This document shows positions 28,414 to 43,784 of a stretch of DNA of 64,000 bases, in pieces. The DNA is from Nocardia bhagyanarayanae (GTDB lineage: Bacteria; Actinomycetota; Actinomycetes; Mycobacteriales; Mycobacteriaceae). A model generated the notes under the pieces. The model was not told where the DNA came from. It saw only the letters and a program-made list of their open reading frames with translations, and made no database searches. The translations under genes were made by a program, and so were the position numbers. The stretch is from the NCBI RefSeq assembly GCF_006716565.1, contig NZ_VFPG01000001.1:4340001-4404000 (forward strand). The letters are read 5' to 3'. Position 1 is the first letter of the stretch. Each line of letters starts with the position of its first letter.

Positions 28414-29355
28414 CTAACCGACCCGCGCCGCTTCGCGGGCGAGGATCCGCTCGCGTTGTTCTTCGAACCGGACGACGTCGCGGGCAAGTTTGTCGAGGTA
28501 CTCGCCGAGTTCTTCGCGGCTGCGTTCGCCGCGTGCGGTGAAGTCGTTGCGCTTGAAGATCTTCCAGATGCGCAGGACCGGCATCACGACCTCGTCCAGG
28601 TGCTGGCGCAGGTCGTATATCCCGTGCTTGACCATCAACACACCGTTGCGTCGCCAGTTCGGCATGCCGGTGCCCGGCATGACGAAGTTCTTCACGACCA
28701 TGGTCACCGATTCCATCGCCTGGTCGGGGTCGATGTCGAACGCGGCACCGGCGACGTTGCGATAGAACATCATGTGCAAGTTCTCGTCGGCCGCGATGCG
28801 CTGCAACATCCGGTCGGCGACGGGGTCGTCGCAGACTTGTCCGGTGGTGCGATGGCTGACCCGAGTGGCCAACTCCTGCAACGTCACGTAAGCGATCTGA
28901 TCGCACACACCGCCGAAGCCCGGCGGCGTGTGCACGCCGCGGGTCAGATGCACCATCCGGTCGTTCTCCAACGCGACGGGATCGACAGCGCGGGTGCAGA
29001 CGAGGTAGTCGCGCATGGCGATGGCGTGCCGGTTCTCCTCGGCGGTCCAGCGGCCGATCCAGGTGCCCCACGCCCCGTCGCGCGCGAAGTTCTCGGAGAT
29101 CACGCGGTGGTAGGAGGGCAGATTGTCTTCGGTGAGCAGATTCGTGATCATCGCGACCTTGGCGACCTCCGAGAGCCGTGACTGCCCGGGATCCCAATCC
29201 TCGCCGCCCATGGCCGCGAAGTTGCGGCCCTCGTCCCACGGAACGTAGTCGTGCGGACACCATTCCTTGGCCGTCGCCAGATGCCGGTCGATATTGGCCG
29301 CGACGACCGGTTCCAGTTCCATCAGAAGTTCGAGTTGCGTCAAGTTCCTTGCCAT
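28414..29355 (-). CDS. Acyl-ACP desaturase homologue (DesA-type, diiron)
   Basis: The 313-residue protein belongs to the soluble stearoyl-ACP desaturase family, as do mycobacterial DesA1 and DesA2. Diiron ligands are visible: TEDNLPSYH, the first EENRH in WTAEENRHAIAMRDYL, and DENLH in AADENLHMMFYR. The family introduces double bonds into ACP-bound fatty acids, which in this lineage feeds mycolic-acid or unsaturated fatty-acid synthesis. The ATG at 29355 follows AAAGG by 7 nt. It is monocistronic, so no partner reductase is suggested by context. Regiochemistry cannot be read from sequence. Confidence 0.9.
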   Translation of the reverse strand: MARNLTQLELLMELEPVVAANIDRHLATAKEWCPHDYVPWDEGRNFAAMGGEDWDPGQSRLSEVAKVAMITNLLTEDNLPSYHRVISENFARDGAWGTWIGRWTAEENRHAIAMRDYLVCTRAVDPVALENDRMVHLTRGVHTPPGFGGVCDQIAYVTLQELATRVSHRTTGQVCDDPVADRMLQRIAADENLHMMFYRNVAGAAFDIDPDQAMESVTMVVKNFVMPGTGMPNWRRNGVLMVKHGIYDLRQHLDEVVMPVLRIWKIFKRNDFTARGERSREELGEYLDKLARDVVRFEEQRERILAREAARVG

Positions 29356-29650
29356 GCAGCGCCTTTCGATTCGGTGGAGAAAAACCACGGAACGTACCGC
29401 TGTTCACGCATCACTGACTGTGCGGGCCTCGCCGCGCACCCACACCCTAGACCAGTTCCCCGTCACGGCCGCGACGTTGGTCGCCAGGGGGTGGCGACCT
29501 GGCATTTTGCCGCGGGTACCGGGTGTCTTTCCTGCGGTATGTCCGCCGGACCGTTTGTGCTGTAACTTACTGGCCGGGAACAGCGTTCACCGCGACAGCG
29601 GTCGACAGTGCTCTCCGAGTGATTCACCTCGAGCAGTGGGAGTATTTGCC

Positions 29651-31751: not shown

Positions 31752-31792
31752 GTGTTCGGCGACTGCTAAAGGGAGATGGGGTCGCCGAACAC
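31752..31792. terminator. Inverted repeat between msrA and the porin gene
   Basis: A perfect 12-bp inverted repeat (31752-31763 with 31781-31792) separated by 17 nt overlaps the last codons of the porin gene and lies 10 bp after msrA. It could terminate both convergent transcripts. Confidence 0.5.
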
Positions 31793-32725
31793 TGCTCCGC
31801 TGTCGTCGACCTCCGGGCTTCTGGCGTACACGTAGGTGAACTGCCTGATGGTCACCGGGCCGGCGCAGTTGTTGACCGCGATGTGGTAGTCGCGGGTGAT
31901 GATCTGCACTGTCGTGTCGGGAATGATTTCTTTCGGCTCCCCGATCAAGACGTCTTTCACTTCACCGGGACTCAGGGTGAGGATGAGCACCGGACCGGGG
32001 TCCACCGCAACCTGCGGATTCACCCCTTCCAGCTCCTGCCACTGCCTCGACTGCTGGGTTTGTGCTTGGCCGGACTGCTGGGTTTGTGCTTGGCCGGATT
32101 CCTGGGTTTGCGCTTGGCCGGATTCCTGGGTTTGTGCTTGGCCGGACTGCTGGGTTCGTGCTTGGCCGGACTGCTGGGTCTGCGCCTGCGCGGACTCCCC
32201 CGAACTCGATTGTTCCTGTGTGCGCGACTGCGACTGTTCCTGTGTGCGCGACTGCGACTGTTCCTGTGTGCGTGACCGCGACTGTTCCTGCGTGCGCGAC
32301 TGCGACTGTTCCTGCGTTCGCGACTGCGACTGTTCCAAGGTATTGGCCTGCTCCTGCTCCCACCCGTACTTCGGCCGGGGCCCCTCGAACCCGACTTCCA
32401 GGGAGGATTCGACACCAACCGCTCCCTCGTCGATCTCCACCCCGCAGCCGACGGCGTAACCGGTCGTCAGCAGGCCCCCGGCCGGCCCGTCGATCCGGCC
32501 GTAGGCGACAACGCTGACCAGGGCCTCCCGGGTGGTCCCGACCATGTTCAACGGTGCGATGCGATTGACGACTTCATCGCGGGCGCCGACCATGAAACGG
32601 CCGAACACCGAGTCGAAGGTCTTCTCGTGCGGCGGAAGTTGGACGATATCCCCGTGCGCGGCCGGTGTGGGCAGCACAGCCAGCAGTGAAGCGATCAAGC
32701 TCACTTTCCGGATGAGTCGCAACAT
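31766..32725 (-). CDS. MspA-family porin with in-frame tandem repeats
   Basis: The 319-residue protein has a signal peptide (residues 1-25, cleavage near AAHG/DIV). The MspA/nocardial porin body is split in two. The N-terminal part contains VGTTREALVSVVAYGRIDGPAGG and a TGYAVGCGVEID strand. The C-terminal part has ILTLSPGEVKDVLIG, RDYHIAVNNCAGPVTIRQ and the ending SPEVDDSGAVFGDPISL, all typical of the family. Between them, about residues 122-227 hold a low-complexity segment: five copies of an 8-residue unit QSQSRTQE, then six of QAQTQ(Q/E)SG. In MspA the corresponding region forms part of the barrel and loops. The insert may be an exposed or periplasmic extension. It may no longer be a general porin. 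Confidence 0.85.
   Translation of the reverse strand: MLRLIRKVSLIASLLAVLPTPAAHGDIVQLPPHEKTFDSVFGRFMVGARDEVVNRIAPLNMVGTTREALVSVVAYGRIDGPAGGLLTTGYAVGCGVEIDEGAVGVESSLEVGFEGPRPKYGWEQEQANTLEQSQSRTQEQSQSRTQEQSRSRTQEQSQSRTQEQSQSRTQEQSSSGESAQAQTQQSGQARTQQSGQAQTQESGQAQTQESGQAQTQQSGQAQTQQSRQWQELEGVNPQVAVDPGPVLILTLSPGEVKDVLIGEPKEIIPDTTVQIITRDYHIAVNNCAGPVTIRQFTYVYARSPEVDDSGAVFGDPISL
32048..32191. repeat. 24-bp tandem repeat, six copies, in the porin gene
   Basis: Six consecutive 24-bp units (core CTGGGTTTGTGCTTGGCCGG on the plus strand) encode QAQTQ(Q/E)SG on the minus strand. Substitutions are few and the length is a multiple of three, so the frame is kept. Confidence 0.9.
32211..32330. repeat. 24-bp tandem repeat, five copies, in the porin gene
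   Basis: Five consecutive 24-bp units (core TGTTCCTGTGTGCGCGACTG on the plus strand) encode QSQSRTQE on the minus strand. They differ in sequence from the neighbouring six-copy block although both are 24 bp long. Confidence 0.9.
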
Positions 32726-35355: not shown

Positions 35356-37482
35356 TCAGGAGGTCGTGGCCGCGGGCTCCCCGGTCTTCTCCACCACGGT
35401 GGCGACGTGGCGGCGCGGACGCTTGCCGCCCGGCACCCACCAGTTGGCCTCGCCCATCAGCTGCACGAGCGCGGGAACGAGCAGCATCCGCACCAGGGTC
35501 GCGTCGATGACGAGGGCGACGATCATGCCGAGACCGAGGAACCGCATCGGCGTCAGCGGCGAGAGCGTGAACGCGCCGGTGACCAGGACGAGCAGCACGG
35601 CGGCCGCCGTGATGACGCGCGCGGTCTTGACCGTGCCGACGCGCACCGCCTCGGCGGTGTCCGCGCCCGCGTTGTGCGCCTCGACCATCCGCGAGAGCAG
35701 GAACACCTCGTAGTCGGTGGACAACCCGAAGACCACCGCGATGATCAGCACCAGCATGCCCGCGGCGATCGGCCCGACGCTGACGCCGAGCGGACCGGCG
35801 AGGTGGCCGTCGGCGAAGATCCAGGTGAGCACGCCGAAGGTGGCGGCGAGACTGAGGAACGCCATACCGATGGCCTTGAGCGGCAACATGATCGATCGGA
35901 AGGCGGCGAGCAACAGGCACATGGTCGCCAACACCATGGCGAGCACCATCAGCGGCATCCGCGCCACGATGGAGTCGACGCTGTCGCGGGTGGCGGCGGT
36001 GTCGCCGCCGACCCGGATCACGGTGTCCGGCGGGGGTTCCAGCGCGCGGATGTCGAGCACCGTCGCCGTGGCGGCCTCGCTGCGGTCGGTGGCGGTCAGG
36101 AAGACGTGCAGCACCACGAAATCCTCGGCACGCCCGACCTGCAACACCGAGCGCACGCCGGGCACCGCGCCGAGCGCGCGCAGCGTCTCGTCGACCGCGG
36201 CCGCGTTGGGGACCGAGCCGTCCACCCCGCGCAGCACCGCGGTGACACCGCTGCTCGCGGCGGGGAATTCGGCGGTGAGCCGTTCGACCGTCTCGCGCAT
36301 CGCGTGGCCTTCGGGCAGTGCCCGGTGATCGATGTCGCCGAGCCGGATGCCGCTGAGCGGCGCGGCCAGCGCGAGCAATACCGCGCCCACCGCGATCGTG
36401 ACCACACCGGGCCTGCGCAGCACGGCGCCGACGACGCGACCCCAGAACCGTTCGGTGCGTTCGGATGTCCGCGCGCGACCAATGCGGGGACCGAACAGGG
36501 CGAGCATCGCGGGCAGCACGGTCAGCGAGAGCGCGGCGGCCAGCGCGACGGCCGCGATGGCGCCGAAACCCAAGGAGCGCAACACCGCCTGCGGGAAGAC
36601 GAAGGTTCCCGCGAAGGCGCAGATCAGCAGTAGCGCGGAGAACGCGACGGTGCGGCCCGCTGTCGCGCACGTGCGTTCGATCGCCCTCGGCACGTCGCCT
36701 CCGTCGGCCATCTCCTCGCGGAACCGATTGACCAGGAACAGCCCGTAGTCGATCGCCATGCCGAGCCCGAGCAGCGAGGCGATGTTGACCGCGAAGGTGC
36801 TCACCTCGGTCAGCTCGCTCAGCACCCGGATCGCGCCCATCGCGCCGGCGACCGCGAGCATGCCGACCACGACGGGCAGCGAGGCCGCCGCGACCCCGCC
36901 GAACACCAGCACCAGCACGAGCAGCGTCACCGGCAGCGAGATCGACTCCGCCACCAGCAGATCCCGCTGCGACTGGGCGGTGATCCCGGTCGACACCGCG
37001 CTGTAGCCGGACAGCTCGGTCTCGATGCCGGGAACACGCAGCGCCGCTTCGAGTTTCGGATAGGCGGCGACCCGCTCGGTGTCGTCGCCCGCGGTGAACA
37101 CCACCGCGAGCGCCTGCCGTTCGTCGGGGGAACGCAGGAAGGTGGTGCGCGGCGGGACGCTGTTCCAATAGCTTTCGACCGGCCGCGCCAGCAGCGCGGG
37201 ATCGATGGCGGCGATCGCCGCGCGCACCCGCGGCCCGATGTCGGCGAGCGTCTGGCCCTCCGGGGCCGTGTAGATCGCCACCACGTCGGGATTCTGCGGG
37301 CCGAAGTGCTCGGTGACGAGCCGGTCGACCAGCGCGGACTCGCTGTTCGGGTCGATGAACCCGCCCGCGCTGAGCTGCTCGGCCGCGCCCGCCCCGAACA
37401 ACCCGCACAAACCCATGACTACCACCGCGACGGCGAGCACCGTGCGCGGCCGCGCCATCACGAACCTGGCCCACGCGATCAT
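35356..37482 (-). CDS. MMPL/RND-family lipid transporter
   Basis: The 708-residue membrane protein has the duplicated MMPL layout: membrane helix, periplasmic domain and five helices, repeated twice. Proton-relay Asp-containing helices are visible as GLGMAIDYGLFLVNRF and VFGLSTDYEVFLLSRM. MMPL proteins export lipids or glycolipids across the inner membrane of mycolata. The ATG at 37482 begins MIAWARFVMARPRTV, the usual N-terminus. It is the last gene of the nlt-containing operon, 86 bp after the acyltransferase, so export of the operon's lipid product is an attractive inference. Confidence 0.9.
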   Translation of the reverse strand: MIAWARFVMARPRTVLAVAVVVMGLCGLFGAGAAEQLSAGGFIDPNSESALVDRLVTEHFGPQNPDVVAIYTAPEGQTLADIGPRVRAAIAAIDPALLARPVESYWNSVPPRTTFLRSPDERQALAVVFTAGDDTERVAAYPKLEAALRVPGIETELSGYSAVSTGITAQSQRDLLVAESISLPVTLLVLVLVFGGVAAASLPVVVGMLAVAGAMGAIRVLSELTEVSTFAVNIASLLGLGMAIDYGLFLVNRFREEMADGGDVPRAIERTCATAGRTVAFSALLLICAFAGTFVFPQAVLRSLGFGAIAAVALAAALSLTVLPAMLALFGPRIGRARTSERTERFWGRVVGAVLRRPGVVTIAVGAVLLALAAPLSGIRLGDIDHRALPEGHAMRETVERLTAEFPAASSGVTAVLRGVDGSVPNAAAVDETLRALGAVPGVRSVLQVGRAEDFVVLHVFLTATDRSEAATATVLDIRALEPPPDTVIRVGGDTAATRDSVDSIVARMPLMVLAMVLATMCLLLAAFRSIMLPLKAIGMAFLSLAATFGVLTWIFADGHLAGPLGVSVGPIAAGMLVLIIAVVFGLSTDYEVFLLSRMVEAHNAGADTAEAVRVGTVKTARVITAAAVLLVLVTGAFTLSPLTPMRFLGLGMIVALVIDATLVRMLLVPALVQLMGEANWWVPGGKRPRRHVATVVEKTGEPAATTS

Positions 37483-37568
37483 CGCGGACCGGCCGAACGG
37501 TCGTCCCCCGTGGTCGGATCGATCATCGGAATCTCCTGTGCCGCAGTGGTTGTGCCGTGAAGACCGGG

Positions 37569-38762
37569 TCAGCGCGCGGCGGACGCGGCGAGCTCGCGTT
37601 CCAACGTCGACACGAGGCGATCCAGCAGCGCCTCGAGCCGTGGCTCGACCCCCGCGCCGTTGCGGCACGACACCGTGATCTCCAGCCGTCCCGCCGATTC
37701 GACGATGCCGAACAGCAGCGGCATCATCCCGCTGTGCTGCGGAAGCACCCGAATGCTCACCGGTGTGAAGCCGGGCACCGCCATCTCGGTCAAATCGAAG
37801 ACGCCCAAGTGGGACACGGTGGCGGACACCAAGTTCCGGCCGAGCCGCGCGCCGACCCAGTTGCCCGCGCGCAGCACCGCGCGGACCACCGCGGGCGGGA
37901 ACGCGGTGAGCCCGCCGTTGTCCATCTGGTTCAGTTCGCGGTTCTCCTTCAAGCCCGCGCGCAACTGGTCGTTCACCGATTCCCAGGTGTCGCCGGGGGT
38001 GACGTCGAGGAACAGCGGAAGCGCCAGATTGGCGGTGGACCGCAGTGCGGGGTCGTGCCTGCGCAGATCGACCGGAATCATGAAGCGCGACTTGGCTTGC
38101 GCCGCGTCGGCCAGCACGGCGGCGACCCGCGCGACGATGCCCCTACCGGTCGCCGCGACGGTACGGTGCCGCAGCAACCAGGGCGACTCGCCGGGATCCT
38201 GTGCACCCCGCCCGGCCGCCGAGGGATAGATCGGCAGCAGGACCGAGGGCTTGCCGGGTGCGCCGATGCGCGCGACCAGTTCCGCGTCCGCGACCGGGTC
38301 GGGCGCGCCGAACGGCTCGACGCCGCGCAGCGCGCGGAAGACGTCGTCCACCCACATGCGCACACCCATGCCGTCCATCACGCCGTGGAACACGCGGAAG
38401 ACGATGGTCACCGGATCCGCGGTGAGCAGCAGGACCTCGCACGTGCGGTCGGGCGTCGGACCGATCGGGCTGTTGAGGACGGGGTCGTTCTCCAGTCCGG
38501 GATAGGTCAGCGAGTGACCCGCGACGACCCGCACGGTGGCCGCGACGCCGGTGTCCACCCACTCGGCTCCGTCGCGGACCAGCCGGGAGCCGGGGTTGGC
38601 CGCCGAGGCCACGTCGACCGCGCGCTGCAGGTCGGCGGGGTCCAGCGTGCCCTGCCCGTGCACCGCCAGCTGCATCAGGAACGGCGGAGCCAGTTCCCTC
38701 GTGGCGAAGTACAGGCGCTCGGTCGGGGTGATGCGACGGCGAAAGGTGGTCTCGCTGCTCAT
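37569..38762 (-). CDS. Condensation-domain-type acyltransferase (PapA/WES-like)
   Basis: The 397-residue protein has the two-lobed CoA-dependent acyltransferase fold. The catalytic motif HHxxxDG is present as FHGVMDG (His126, Asp130), with the first His replaced by Phe, which is tolerated in the family. A later RFMIPVDLRRH region matches the structural DFGWG/N-terminal-lobe bridging segment of such enzymes only loosely. It lies 21 bp after the nltD-like reductase and before the MMPL gene. It may esterify a hydroxyl of the operon's product or load it for export; substrate unknown. Confidence 0.78.
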   Translation of the reverse strand: MSSETTFRRRITPTERLYFATRELAPPFLMQLAVHGQGTLDPADLQRAVDVASAANPGSRLVRDGAEWVDTGVAATVRVVAGHSLTYPGLENDPVLNSPIGPTPDRTCEVLLLTADPVTIVFRVFHGVMDGMGVRMWVDDVFRALRGVEPFGAPDPVADAELVARIGAPGKPSVLLPIYPSAAGRGAQDPGESPWLLRHRTVAATGRGIVARVAAVLADAAQAKSRFMIPVDLRRHDPALRSTANLALPLFLDVTPGDTWESVNDQLRAGLKENRELNQMDNGGLTAFPPAVVRAVLRAGNWVGARLGRNLVSATVSHLGVFDLTEMAVPGFTPVSIRVLPQHSGMMPLLFGIVESAGRLEITVSCRNGAGVEPRLEALLDRLVSTLERELAASAAR

Positions 38763-38783
38763 GATTGCCTCCGGGATCGCGGG

Positions 38784-39827
38784 TCAGCGCAAATGTCTGG
38801 TCAGTTCGCGGACGCCCCCCTGAGTGTCGAGCCAGGCGAGGAAGCTCGCCAGCCCCGTCGCCCGATCCACGATCGGGCGGTAGCCGAAATCGCGGGTGGC
38901 CGCGCCGGTGTCGTAGGTCGCCGAGCGGGTCATCAGCGCCACCGCGTAGCGGGACAGCGGCGGCGACCAGCGAGTGGACACCGCGGGAATCCGCCAGACC
39001 GCCTCGATCACGGCCACCACCGCGTCGAGCACCCGGCGGTTCGGCTGCCTGGTCGGCGGCTGGTAGCCGAGCTCGGTGGCGACCTGCCCGAGGAACTGCC
39101 ACACGTTCGTCTTCTCGGCGTCGGCGATGAAATACGGCTTGCCGCCGACGTTCTCGGTGGCAAGCGCCAGCACGACGGCCTCGACGATGTTGTCGACGTG
39201 GCACAGCGAGGCGTACACCTCACGCCCGAACGACAGGTCGGGCAGCCTGCCTTCGGCGGTGCGCCCGAGCAGCCGCACGATCGGCCCCGACCGGTCGCCC
39301 GCGCCCCAGATCGCCCTCGGTCGCAGCGCGCAGGTGGTGAAACCCGGTGCGTTCGCGGCGAGTACGGCGCGTTCGGCCGCGGCCTTGGTCTCGGAGTAGA
39401 GATTCAGGTAGCGGCGCGGGTAGGGGAGGGACTCGTCGACGTCGAGCAGGTCGCCGCCGTGGTAGTCCATCATCGCGCTCGGGCTGGAGATGAACACGAA
39501 CCGCGACGCCCCGCCCCGCTTGGCCGCGTCGAGCAGCCGCTGGGTGGCGCGGACGTTCTCCTCCCAGAACTGTTCGCGGGTGCCGCGTTCGTCGACGCGC
39601 GCCGCGCTGTGCACGACCGCATCGATGCCGCCGGTCGCCTCCACCAGCGACGGCGCGTCGGTGAGATCGCCGTAGACGATCTCCACACGCTCTCGCGCGT
39701 CGCCGAGATCGTTCAGATTACTGGTGCGGCGCACCAGGATTCGCACGTCGTGCGCTCCGTCGGCCACCAGCCGCCGCACGAGTGCGCCGCCGAGGAAACC
39801 CGACGCCCCGGTCACGAGAATCTTCAT
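38784..39827 (-). CDS. nltD: 3beta-HSD-like NAD(P)-dependent reductase (OleD/NltD-like)
   Basis: The 347-residue extended SDR has the N-terminal TGASGFLGG, SAARVDE, and the catalytic YSETKAAAE. In OleABCD and nocardiolactone pathways this enzyme reduces the 2-alkyl-3-ketoacid made by the ketoacyl synthase to the 2-alkyl-3-hydroxyacid, the substrate of the beta-lactone synthetase. Its placement with the two KSIII genes and the ligase supports this over a steroid role. The ATG at 39827 overlaps the membrane-protein stop (ATGA). Confidence 0.88.
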   Translation of the reverse strand: MKILVTGASGFLGGALVRRLVADGAHDVRILVRRTSNLNDLGDARERVEIVYGDLTDAPSLVEATGGIDAVVHSAARVDERGTREQFWEENVRATQRLLDAAKRGGASRFVFISSPSAMMDYHGGDLLDVDESLPYPRRYLNLYSETKAAAERAVLAANAPGFTTCALRPRAIWGAGDRSGPIVRLLGRTAEGRLPDLSFGREVYASLCHVDNIVEAVVLALATENVGGKPYFIADAEKTNVWQFLGQVATELGYQPPTRQPNRRVLDAVVAVIEAVWRIPAVSTRWSPPLSRYAVALMTRSATYDTGAATRDFGYRPIVDRATGLASFLAWLDTQGGVRELTRHLR

Positions 39828-40138
39828 CGCTCGTCCTCTCGATGATCGCTGGATAATCCGTCGCCCGCCCCGGCGCTCAGGCTCGCGCCGTACCAGGTCA
39901 GGCCGAAGATTTGGGTCAGCACCGCGGTCTTCCACGGGGACTGCCCGGTGCCGCGGGTGGCGCGCAGCGCGACCGGAATCTGCGCCGCGTGCACCACCAC
40001 GCTGAGAAACGCGTCGATCCACCACGCGGCGCGCAGCCACCGGTTGCGCGGCGCCTGCCCGGTACGCGCCACGATCAGACCGGCGGCCAGGTAGAGCCAG
40101 CCGAGAATCGGAATCGCCCGTAGCGCGGTAGTTTTCAT
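39824..40138 (-). CDS. Small membrane protein inside the nlt operon
   Basis: The 104-residue protein has about three membrane segments: IPILGWLYLAAGLIVA (about residues 9-25), an amphipathic WWIDAFLSVVVHAAQIPVAL (about 39-58), and TAVLTQIFGLTWYGASL (about 70-87). A charged tail HREDER follows. It overlaps the ligase gene by 4 nt upstream and the reductase gene by 4 nt downstream, so it must be made in step with them. No family was recognised. It could anchor the pathway enzymes at the membrane; that is inference. Confidence 0.78.
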   Translation of the reverse strand: MKTTALRAIPILGWLYLAAGLIVARTGQAPRNRWLRAAWWIDAFLSVVVHAAQIPVALRATRGTGQSPWKTAVLTQIFGLTWYGASLSAGAGDGLSSDHREDER

Positions 40139-41814
40139 CGTCGCCCCTCGGCTTTCAACTGCTTGTCCGCCCATACCGCGAGCTGTTCGCGGCCGATCTT
40201 GGCGTTGTGCCGGATGTCCACCGGGAACTTCGGATGTACGAGCACATCGGTGATCGGCTTGGTGAGTTCGAATTCGGTGGCGCGGGTGCGCAATTTCATC
40301 TCGACGGCGGTGCGGTCCGCGCCCGGCTTCAGCTCGACGCACAGCACGGCCCGTTGCGCACCCCGCTCACCGACGCCGACCAGCGCCGTGCGGGCCACGC
40401 CGGGCACCGTGTTGAAGATCTGCTCGACCTGCACGGTGAACATCGGTCCGTCCGTGGTCACCACCCGCTGACTCTTGCGACCGCAGAACCAGATCCGGCC
40501 CTGCTCATCGATCCAGGCCAAGTCGCCGGTGCGGTGCCAGATCCGCGCGCCGTCGACGATCTTGCCTTGGCGGTTGGCCTCCTCGGGCCAGTAGTACTCG
40601 GTGCTGACGTTCGGACCCGAGACGACGAGTTCGCCGACGCCTCCGGTCTGCTCGAGCTCGCCCGCCAGTTCCTCGGCGCGCGCCCAGGTGGGGATCGGCG
40701 CGTCGGTGATGGCCACCAGGCGCGCCTCGACCCGGTCCGACGGCCGCCCGATGCAGATGCCATCGCCCTGGTGCGCCCTCGTCACCAAACCACCGAGGAG
40801 CTCCCGTGATTCGATGGTGGACATGGGCAGCGCCTCGGTGGAGCCGTAGCCCGCGAAGATCCGCACGTCCTCGGCGAGCACCTCGCGCAGACCGGCGATG
40901 CACCAGTCCGGCACCGGCGCGCCGCCGGAGTAGATGCTGCCGAGCGTGGGCAGCGCCGTCGGGTGCTGCTCGAGGTGGCGCAGCATCGGTATCAGCACCG
41001 CCGGGGAGGCGAACATGGTCCGCACGCCGAACTTGGCGATGGCGTCGACCACGTGCGCCGGATCGGTCGAACCGACCTTGCTGGGAATCAGTGGCGGCAG
41101 TACGCAGCGCGCACCGAGCAGTAGATCGAGCACGCCGACCAGCGGCAGCGTGATCAAGGAGGTGTCCGGCGGGACGTGGTCGCGCGCGGTGTCGACCTGC
41201 TCCACCATGGCGGCGAGGTTGCCGTGGGTGAGTTGAACCGCCTTGGCCGGCCCGGTGCTTCCGGTGGTGAAGGCGATGAGCAGCAGACTGTCCGGGTCGG
41301 CCGGTGCGCGCTGCGGCAGCGGACCCCGCGGTCGGCGGCCCCAGTCCGCCAACCGCTCGCCGCGCCAGAACCACTGCTTGCCGACGGTGACCGCGATGCG
41401 CACGCTGCGGAAGCTGTGGCGGAACAGGACGCGCAGCGCGTGCGCCTGCGGGATGCCGATGAACGCCTCGGCGTCCACCGCGCGCAGGCAGCGCAGCATC
41501 TTGCGTACGCCCATGCCCGGGTCGATGACCACCGGCACGGCGCCGATCTTCAACAACGCGAACATGATCGCGTAGAGCTCGGGACTCGGCAGCACCAGCA
41601 CGACGGTGCGGGTGCCGGTGCCGACGCCCGAGGCGGTGAGCCGCTCGGCGATCGCGTCCGACCACTCGTCGAGTTCGCGATAGCCGAGGTGCCGGTAGGC
41701 CGGCAGGCCATCGGGATTCTTCCCCTCGGGGTAGATCACCGCTTGGCGGTCCGGCTCCGTGCGCGCGAACGCACGGAACCGGTCGATGGCCTGCCAGTAG
41801 TTCCCTTCGGTCAC
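40135..41814 (-). CDS. nltC: AMP-forming beta-lactone synthetase-like ligase (OleC/NltC)
   Basis: The 559-residue member of the acyl-AMP ligase superfamily has the P-loop-like A3 motif AFTTGSTGPAKAVQLTHGN, GYGSTEALPMS (A5), RTGDLAWIDEQGRIWFCGR (A7/A8) and a C-terminal Lys region (NAKIGREQL). Sequence alone resembles fatty acid-CoA ligases. The setting beside a KSIII pair and an OleD-type reductase identifies the OleC/NltC class, which adenylates beta-hydroxyacids and closes a beta-lactone ring. The GTG start at 41814 overlaps the previous stop by 4 nt. Confidence 0.88.
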   Translation of the reverse strand: MTEGNYWQAIDRFRAFARTEPDRQAVIYPEGKNPDGLPAYRHLGYRELDEWSDAIAERLTASGVGTGTRTVVLVLPSPELYAIMFALLKIGAVPVVIDPGMGVRKMLRCLRAVDAEAFIGIPQAHALRVLFRHSFRSVRIAVTVGKQWFWRGERLADWGRRPRGPLPQRAPADPDSLLLIAFTTGSTGPAKAVQLTHGNLAAMVEQVDTARDHVPPDTSLITLPLVGVLDLLLGARCVLPPLIPSKVGSTDPAHVVDAIAKFGVRTMFASPAVLIPMLRHLEQHPTALPTLGSIYSGGAPVPDWCIAGLREVLAEDVRIFAGYGSTEALPMSTIESRELLGGLVTRAHQGDGICIGRPSDRVEARLVAITDAPIPTWARAEELAGELEQTGGVGELVVSGPNVSTEYYWPEEANRQGKIVDGARIWHRTGDLAWIDEQGRIWFCGRKSQRVVTTDGPMFTVQVEQIFNTVPGVARTALVGVGERGAQRAVLCVELKPGADRTAVEMKLRTRATEFELTKPITDVLVHPKFPVDIRHNAKIGREQLAVWADKQLKAEGRR

Positions 41815-42725
41815 GCGGGCGCCCCGACGAGGGCCGGCAGCTGGTACAGCACCGCCGCGGCCGACGGACCCGCGCCCGCCGCGACGAACAGCACCCGCGT
41901 GTGCGAGCCGAGCGACTCCTGCGCCACGGCGCGGTCGTAGGCGATCGTCAGCGCGGCGGTGTGCGGGTCACCGTAGGACAGGTCCGGCGTACGCACCGAA
42001 TCACGGGCGATGCCGAGCGAATCCGCCAGCCGCAGCGGGAATTCCGCGCTCGGCGTGGAGGCGATGAGCACCGTCCCCGACAGGTCGGCGGCACCGTCCT
42101 CGGCGAGCGCCGCCCGCGCGGTCTCCAGCGCGATCTCGAGCAAGCGGTCCTCGAAGCCGGGCTCGCGCTCGACGGTCATCAGGCCGCGGCCGACGGTGCC
42201 CATGGTGGCGGTGTCGACGTAGGCCTCGATGGCCGGGGTGCCCTCGGCGGTCGCGGTGTGTACGCGGCCGAAGCCCTCGGGCTCGTCGGTGCGCTCCAGC
42301 AACAGAGCGGCACCCGCTGTGGCGTAGGGGAATTCGTCGTCGGCAACCGCGCGGGTGAGCGACGGGTGGGTATCGCCGGAGACGATCAGCACGTGTTCGG
42401 CGCTGCCGGTCTCCAGGATCGAGGTGGCCACCTGCACCGCGTTGAGCACGCCGATCGCGCCGTTCATCAGATCGAAGGAGAACGAGGTCGGATCGTCCTT
42501 CTCGTACTCCAGGCCGATGCCCGCCGCCTTCTGGATCAGCGCGGACACCGCCGGTTCCACGATGTTCGAATCGCGGTGCACGCCCGCGTTGATCATCACG
42601 CCGACCTGCTCGGGCTGGATGCCCGCCCGCTCCATCGCGCGCTTCGCGGCGCGACCACTGTGCGTGATGATGCTGTGGGTGTCGCCTGTTCGGCTGACTC
42701 CGGTGGACTTGATACGCACGCCCAT
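41811..42725 (-). CDS. nltB: Cys-less ketoacyl synthase III partner (NltB-like)
   Basis: The 304-residue thiolase-fold protein lacks catalytic residues. Where its neighbour has FDISNACAG, it reads FDLMNGAIG, so the nucleophilic Cys is Ala90. The His loop is replaced by IASTPSA and the Asn by Asp in SYGDPHTA. It keeps a Glu (Glu57, NIVEPAV) aligned with Glu99 of the partner. In OleA a glutamate from one monomer reaches into the other's active site, so this subunit probably donates the Glu to an obligate heterodimer. The gap to the upstream gene is 9 bp. Confidence 0.88.
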   Translation of the reverse strand: MGVRIKSTGVSRTGDTHSIITHSGRAAKRAMERAGIQPEQVGVMINAGVHRDSNIVEPAVSALIQKAAGIGLEYEKDDPTSFSFDLMNGAIGVLNAVQVATSILETGSAEHVLIVSGDTHPSLTRAVADDEFPYATAGAALLLERTDEPEGFGRVHTATAEGTPAIEAYVDTATMGTVGRGLMTVEREPGFEDRLLEIALETARAALAEDGAADLSGTVLIASTPSAEFPLRLADSLGIARDSVRTPDLSYGDPHTAALTIAYDRAVAQESLGSHTRVLFVAAGAGPSAAAVLYQLPALVGAPA

Positions 42726-42734
42726 GTCGATACC

Positions 42735-43784
42735 TCAGACCTTCAGGGAGGAGATGGTGGTGGACAGGAAGCCGGTCACGACGCCCGAGGCGGCCGGAAT
42801 CATCAGCAGTTTCGATCCCGCCGGGATGTTCTGATCGCTGAGCTGATCGTGCAGCACGATGAAATGCGAAGTGGTGGAAGTGTTTCCGTACTTGTGGATG
42901 ACATTGAGGTCCGGCGGCATCGGCGTGCCGAGTTCGCGCGCGGCGATGGCGTTGGCGTACGGGACCGCCGCGGCGCCGAACTGGTGGTGGATGATGTAGT
43001 CGAACTGCTCGTCGGCGAAGGTTTTGCCCTGCTTCTCCAGGTAGCTGCCCTGGGTGTTCGGCCAGAGCATGAACCGGGCCTCGTTGTGCATCTTGCGGTT
43101 GTCGGTGTAGAGCGCGACGCCCGGGGTCCGGCCGCTGGGCATGCCGAGGCACAGGTGCGAGTGCTCCGAGGCCGTCGTCATCTCGATGTAGTGGATCTTG
43201 TCGGCGTCGTCGACCGCCTCGTCCAGCACGAGCGCGCATCCGGAATCGCCGACCGACAGCGAGGCGAACTGCAGATCGTATTTCTCGGAAATCTCGTTCA
43301 CCGCGGTTTCGGAGATCGGCGTAATTGCCTCACCGCTGACCACCATGCCGTTTCGGACGATGCCGGCACGGATCATCCGATCGAGGATGTAGGTACCGGA
43401 GAGCATTCCGGCGCAGGCGTTCGAAATATCGAAAGTGATCGCCTTTCGAGCGCCGACGTGCTTGGCGATCGAGGAGGCGAAAGACGGCTCCATGTACACC
43501 CGGGTGCCGTGCTTGCTGCGCGTGATCGAACTGGAGATGATCACGTCGAGATCGCCGGCGGAATACCGTGACCTGGAAAGACAGTCCTCGGCGGCCTTGA
43601 TGGCGAGCGCGAAGGAATCCTCGTAACTTTCCGGACGCGTATCGTGCACCCGGCGTTCCTTGATTCCTGTGATTCGCTCGAGATCGAACGACGGCGGCAC
43701 TTTCAGCCGCCCGATCAGCTCCTCGGTGGTGACGATTTTCGAGGGCAGATATGCGCCGATGGATTCGAAACGAGAATGCGACAC
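42735..43784 (-). CDS. nltA: Ketoacyl synthase III, catalytic (OleA/NltA-like)
   Basis: The 349-residue thiolase-superfamily enzyme has the full Cys-His-Asn triad: Cys124 in FDISNACAGM, His267 in IIHHQFGAA, and Asn301 in HKYGNTSTTS. In the Ole/Nlt pathway it condenses two long acyl-CoA chains head to head into a 2-alkyl-3-ketoacid. The GTG at 43784 has AGGAG 5 nt upstream. It is the first gene of the seven-gene leftward operon, preceded by a 499-bp AT-richer region. Confidence 0.9.
   Translation of the reverse strand: MSHSRFESIGAYLPSKIVTTEELIGRLKVPPSFDLERITGIKERRVHDTRPESYEDSFALAIKAAEDCLSRSRYSAGDLDVIISSSITRSKHGTRVYMEPSFASSIAKHVGARKAITFDISNACAGMLSGTYILDRMIRAGIVRNGMVVSGEAITPISETAVNEISEKYDLQFASLSVGDSGCALVLDEAVDDADKIHYIEMTTASEHSHLCLGMPSGRTPGVALYTDNRKMHNEARFMLWPNTQGSYLEKQGKTFADEQFDYIIHHQFGAAAVPYANAIAARELGTPMPPDLNVIHKYGNTSTTSHFIVLHDQLSDQNIPAGSKLLMIPAASGVVTGFLSTTISSLKV

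Follow-up and report, generated by a model that had tools for sequence, protein, structure and literature searches.

The present analysis concerns a stretch of 64,000 nt from the genome of Nocardia bhagyanarayanae (contig NZ_VFPG01000001.1, positions 4,340,001 to 4,404,000; hereafter the window), in which seven consecutive genes run in the same direction on the minus strand from 43784 down to 35356, in the order A-B-C-M-D-T-X. A first-pass annotation of the window, made without database searches, had placed seven leftward genes at exactly this span and regarded them as a nocardiolactone-type (nlt) beta-lactone locus carrying three extra genes. The features are as follows, with coordinates referring to the window.

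A, 42735..43784, minus strand: ketosynthase III (KSIII)-type synthase subunit with Cys124, His266/267 and Asn301, NltA-like
B, 41811..42725, minus strand: KSIII-type partner without the active Cys and with Glu57, NltB-like
C, 40135..41814, minus strand: AMP-forming ligase of the OleC/beta-lactone synthetase kind, NltC-like
M, 39824..40138, minus strand: 104-aa membrane protein with about three hydrophobic helices, no family
D, 38784..39827, minus strand: OleD-type short-chain dehydrogenase/reductase (SDR), NltD-like
T, 37569..38762, minus strand: stand-alone enzyme of the condensation/chloramphenicol acetyltransferase (CAT) fold with HxxxDG
15-codon open reading frame (ORF), 37479..37526, minus strand: preceded by AGGAG, its stop overlapping the likely start of X as ATGA
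X, 35356..37482, minus strand: MMPL transporter of the MmpL3 family

Neighboring genes overlapped by 4 nt at three of the six junctions (B/C, C/M, and M/D), and not at most of them as the first-pass annotation had it, while the remaining gaps amounted to 9 nt (A-B), 21 nt (D-T), and 86 nt (T-X). The frame of X is open upstream as far as 37668, the likely start being the ATG at 37482, and the 15-codon ORF sits inside the T-X gap, where it may serve as a candidate translational coupler of X. A consensus scan for promoters and terminators was uninformative, yielding one promoter-like and two terminator-like sites, where shuffled sequences gave means of 0.6 and 2.7, respectively.

Searches of Pfam and NCBIfam assigned A and B to the KSIII type, C to the AMP-binding enzymes, and D to the 3-beta-hydroxysteroid dehydrogenase/epimerase type of SDR. 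In the 96 sequences compared, one from the window and 95 from other loci, Cys124, His266/267, and Asn301 of A were kept throughout; in B, Ala or Gly replaced the Cys while Glu57 was likewise kept in 96 of 96. Such a division, with Cys/His/Asn on one subunit and Glu without Cys on its partner, is that of LstAB, the KSIII heterodimer of lipstatin formation in Streptomyces toxytricini, for which the available text of PMC12141560 reports that Cys128 and His271 of LstA and Glu60 of LstB are required for activity and Asn305 for a soluble complex, the residues of the two pairs being compared here by motif and not by alignment. C scored 608 bits on PRK09274 (cut-off 478) and 521 bits on the Xanthomonas olefin beta-lactone synthetase equivalog NF045786 (cut-off 900), its score of 158 bits on the long-chain acyl-CoA ligase model PRK06187 being far below the latter, and the best model for D was the 2-alkyl-3-oxoalkanoate reductase OleD (NF042422; 201 bits, cut-off 580). 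The KSIII pair, the OleC-type ligase, and the OleD-type reductase, in which the first-pass annotation had recognized the four core functions, are therefore all found together in the locus. None of the seven genes matched the beta-lactone decarboxylase OleB in Pfam or NCBIfam, the rest of the genome not having been searched for it.

Among 150 Nocardia genomes, T was found in 102 (about two-thirds), M in 108, and a ligase match at E <= 1e-60, which includes other cluster types, in 112. We analyzed 120 loci around ligase or T matches, a set that excludes the window itself, the loci of G032, G035, and G073 in which T was found, and a small number of ligase fragments located at the ends of contigs. 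T was present in 99 of these loci, and all 99 are of one kind, designated type I, in which the genes present follow A-B-C-M-D-T-X on one strand, losses at contig ends aside. D adjoined T in every one of them, with a spacing of 50 nt or less in 90; X followed T in 92 (with more than 50% identity in 91 and split in L109); and M lay between C and D in 84. M was missing from 15 loci, one of them (L107) not judgeable because it is truncated by the end of its contig, and a homologue of M occurs elsewhere in every one of these genomes. Overlaps of 4 nt recurred at B-C (85/95), C-M (56/83), M-D (68/84), and T-X (67/91). No flanking ORF was comparably conserved, the best one in about 9 kb on each side being found in 33 of the 99 loci. 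Since the order recurs throughout the genus and no outside ORF is comparably conserved, the arrangement reflects more than chance. When protein distances between pairs of loci were compared in a set of 87 (for A, B, C, D, T, and X, with M left out), correlations were r 0.76-0.89 between T or X and the other proteins and r 0.81-0.88 among A-D, values that vertical descent alone would also give. This comparison of gene order, which had been proposed as a check, upheld the placement of M, T, and X in the same unit as the core genes, the three being neither absent from nor unlinked in most nlt-bearing genomes. As a separate observation, 15 of 97 type I ligases (L165-L179) carry, immediately ahead of the P-loop motif and at about residue 162 of C in the window, an in-frame insertion that is variable in sequence and 35-189 aa long.

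A scan of named genomes, with the T of another Nocardia as query, kept the best 80 of 90 relatives as 77 loci, among which near relatives of the window may be missing. All 77 were from Nocardia and all were colinear; 61 had all seven genes, seven were without M, three were without M and X, and six were cut by contig ends, two of the last (L234 and L251) also being without X downstream. These are mostly the same genomes as in the 120-locus set and thus do not constitute a second sample. Two strains of N. brasiliensis held three full A-B-C-M-D-T-X loci (L228, L238, and L259), both type I copies of strain NBRC 14402 (L238 and L259) keeping T and X, and strain IFM 10847 (G084) was 100% identical to L228 over 17.8 kb and gave one ligase match at E <= 1e-60. 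Because these loci share the seven-gene order, with no difference in gene content found between them and the window, M, T, and X are standard parts of the locus, and their description as extras to the known pathway had to be given up. The available text of PMC7064751 reports an oleACD cluster without oleB and the formation of a beta-lactone in N. brasiliensis, and that of PMC7413640 puts the number of homologous nocardiolactone clusters in Nocardia at 36; together with the single ligase match of IFM 10847, these statements indicate that the published nocardiolactone locus should be this one. The locus is thus a member of the known nocardiolactone type, of which M, T, and X are regular parts. 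In the literature covered, no paper was recognized as describing T or X with nlt genes; its scope did not extend to Robinson et al. 2020, reportedly the primary nocardiolactone paper, and no claim is made that the association is unpublished.

T carries the motif HGVMDG at residues 126-131, in agreement with the HxxxDG noted in the first-pass annotation, and HxxxDG was present in T of 99 of 99 type I loci. A fold search returned the condensation/CAT fold, which is shared with PapA5 and the condensation domains of non-ribosomal peptide synthetases (NRPS), so that T combines the motif and the CAT-type fold of the condensation/CAT acyltransferase superfamily. T gave no match to Pfam or NCBIfam, including the PapA models (PF16911 and NCBIfam PapA5), loose Pfam thresholds producing chance-level matches only, and sequence searches against solved structures gave nothing significant. 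No wax ester synthase/diacylglycerol acyltransferase was among the 50 fold matches listed, which excludes nothing. T of N. amikacinitolerans shares 95-96% identity with the T of the window. In one public record (P0001), a T protein with 96% identity is called "ATP-dependent DNA helicase RecG", a name that is clearly mistaken.

X scored 220.5 bits on MMPL PF03176 (cut-off 20.5), and its nearest solved relative was MmpL3 (428 bits, versus 111 for MmpL5). On the MmpL3 trehalose monomycolate exporter model NF052608, X reached 492 bits, below the cut-off of 1400. The genome has 17 MMPL matches, X included, and two other genes in it are better MmpL3 candidates (987 and 974 bits on this model, also below the cut-off). 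X is probably a paralogue and not the essential MmpL3 pump.

M has about three hydrophobic stretches, and D42, L45, S46, H50, A51, A52, and Q53 were invariant in 28 sequences. It matched no Pfam or NCBIfam family, loose Pfam thresholds giving chance-level matches only; the named relatives among the best 120 of 205 matches were annotated as hypothetical or uncharacterized proteins; and its predicted structure was poor (predicted local distance difference test score 60, predicted template modeling score 0.31) and unfit for a fold search. M is present in type I loci, in part of the type II loci, and in type IV loci. The 21 type II loci among the 120 have A and B oriented away from C (matches 325-606 nt apart), followed by C and D, often with M between, and T and X occurred in none of them; their M was about full length in nine, a remnant of about 30-70 aa in nine, and gone in three. 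In genomes having both types, T and X were located with type I. Type IV comprises seven loci with M outside types I and II (L189-L195), holding A in six (53-56% identity), B in six (44-48%), and D in four, and in all seven a different AMP ligase and a convergent, PapA-like acyltransferase; that of L190 scored 53.9 bits on PapA_C (cut-off 30), has the motif HVLLDG, and is not T. T and X are accordingly a coupled pair tied to type I, whereas M moves with the synthesis genes into other cluster types. Since M accompanies these genes without T or X, in clusters that have A, B, and C or D, it is a predicted partner of synthesis, and its proposed part in acylation or export was not sustained.

Several side observations concern these other clusters. 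The M remnants of type II (L148, L150, L152, L155, L156, L158, and L160-L162) retain a DE.ASR- or DELSSR-like stretch, and L193 of type IV retains M, the ligase, and the acyltransferase only. The genome of the window has a second A-B-C-D cluster (L196, C1 at about 4039.6-4044.2 kb), 39-47% identical and with no M or T. MMPL genes, which are common in this genome, lay within the analyzed stretch of all four clusters of this kind that were read (L196-L199).

Among known systems, the Ole pathway (OleABCD, e.g., of Xanthomonas) resembles the window locus through its OleC- and OleD-like enzymes, the best models for C and D, but the KSIII enzyme here is a pair and not a single protein, no OleB-like gene lies in the operon, and the OleC and OleD equivalog cut-offs are not reached. 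The lipstatin cluster lst is similar in its ligase and reductase kinds as well as in its heterodimer and has an NRPS and a formyltransferase, whereas the window locus combines an MmpL pump with a condensation-fold enzyme that stands alone. Mycobacteria pair Pap acyltransferases with MmpL transporters for lipids, PapA5/MmpL7 among others; compared with these, T is without a Pap family match and nearer to condensation domains, and MmpL3 is the solved structure closest to X.

The best explanation, to which we assign a probability of roughly 0.55, is that the seven genes form one conserved unit in which A-D synthesize a 2-alkyl-3-hydroxy acid together with the corresponding beta-lactone, T acylates, and X exports. 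Judging from the protein families, the A-B heterodimer would carry out a non-decarboxylating head-to-head condensation of two fatty acyl-CoAs to give a 2-alkyl-3-ketoacid, D would reduce this to the 2-alkyl-3-hydroxy acid, and C would close the beta-lactone with ATP; M, as a small membrane partner of the synthesis set, would perhaps hold the enzymes at the membrane. T may then transfer an acyl group on a pathway product, and X, as an MmpL3-family pump coupled to T, would move the product of T outward, both steps fitting the folds and the coupling of the two genes. The occurrence of two different HxxxDG acyltransferase families, in type I and type IV, joined to such acid-making modules is the best indirect evidence that acids of this kind are acyl-transferred. 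Several observations weigh against this explanation. The nearest fold match of T is AzeD, which is described as a dehydratase, so that acyl transfer by T is not certain; X is absent beside T in seven of the 99 type I loci despite at least 6.6 kb of downstream sequence, which makes it dispensable or replaceable; type II does without both; C and D fall below their equivalog cut-offs; and nocardiolactone, named as a dialkyl-substituted beta-lactone in a title cited in PMC7413640, has no obvious acylated group as far as the available text goes.

This last point would be accommodated if the lactone itself were the product, with X exporting it unchanged, also for self-protection, and T dehydrating, isomerizing, or removing a toxic by-product. 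We consider this doubtful, as the HxxxDG motif in 99 of 99 loci and a fold common to PapA5 and NRPS condensation domains fit acyl transfer better, and T persists in the seven loci where X is missing beside it. Alternatively, the beta-lactone could be an activated donor whose ring is opened by T with transfer to an acceptor, yielding a mycolate-like ester for export by X, nocardiolactone then being an accumulating intermediate. The T-X overlap in 67 of 91 loci, the proximity of X to MmpL3, the mycolate-glycolipid pump, and the acyltransferase of another family beside the sister type IV cluster in seven of seven loci all speak for such a role, and A, B, and D would be expected to yield a 2-alkyl-3-hydroxy acid resembling a short mycolic acid. 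The sister cluster, however, has an ordinary AMP ligase in the place of C, so that the lactone is not needed for pairing with an acyltransferase, and the free lactone is a reported product in the available text of PMC7413640; we therefore regard the donor role as unlikely.

It is still harder to maintain that T and X are neighbors by descent only and serve another lipid, the pathway consisting of A-D with M. The gaps of 21 nt (D-T) and 86 nt (T-X) in the window, the type II clusters without T and X, and distance correlations of a kind that vertical descent alone would produce are consistent with this view, but it is made very improbable by the close D-T spacing in 90 of 99 loci, the lack of any other conserved neighbor, the retention of T and X in each of the two type I loci that N. 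brasiliensis NBRC 14402 carries, and the association of T and X with type I in genomes having types I and II.

Two features elsewhere in the window may be recorded. An ASdes small RNA (RF01781) was detected at 28970-29037 on the plus strand with 61 bits, above the gathering score, antisense within the minus-strand ORF 28414-29388, and the minus-strand ORF 31766-32725 contains, at 32049-32336, two tandem arrays, each made up of five 24-bp copies.

The boundaries set here apply to a beta-lactone locus present in about two-thirds of the Nocardia genomes searched, and they define which genes a reconstruction of the pathway or a search for its product should take in. If the lactone does act as a donor, a beta-lactone would be a biological activated acyl group, and nocardiolactone would be an intermediate on the way to an undescribed lipid, either secreted or part of the envelope. 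The repeated pairing with two HxxxDG acyltransferase families poses the question of whether the lactone is the product or a step toward an acylated, exported lipid.
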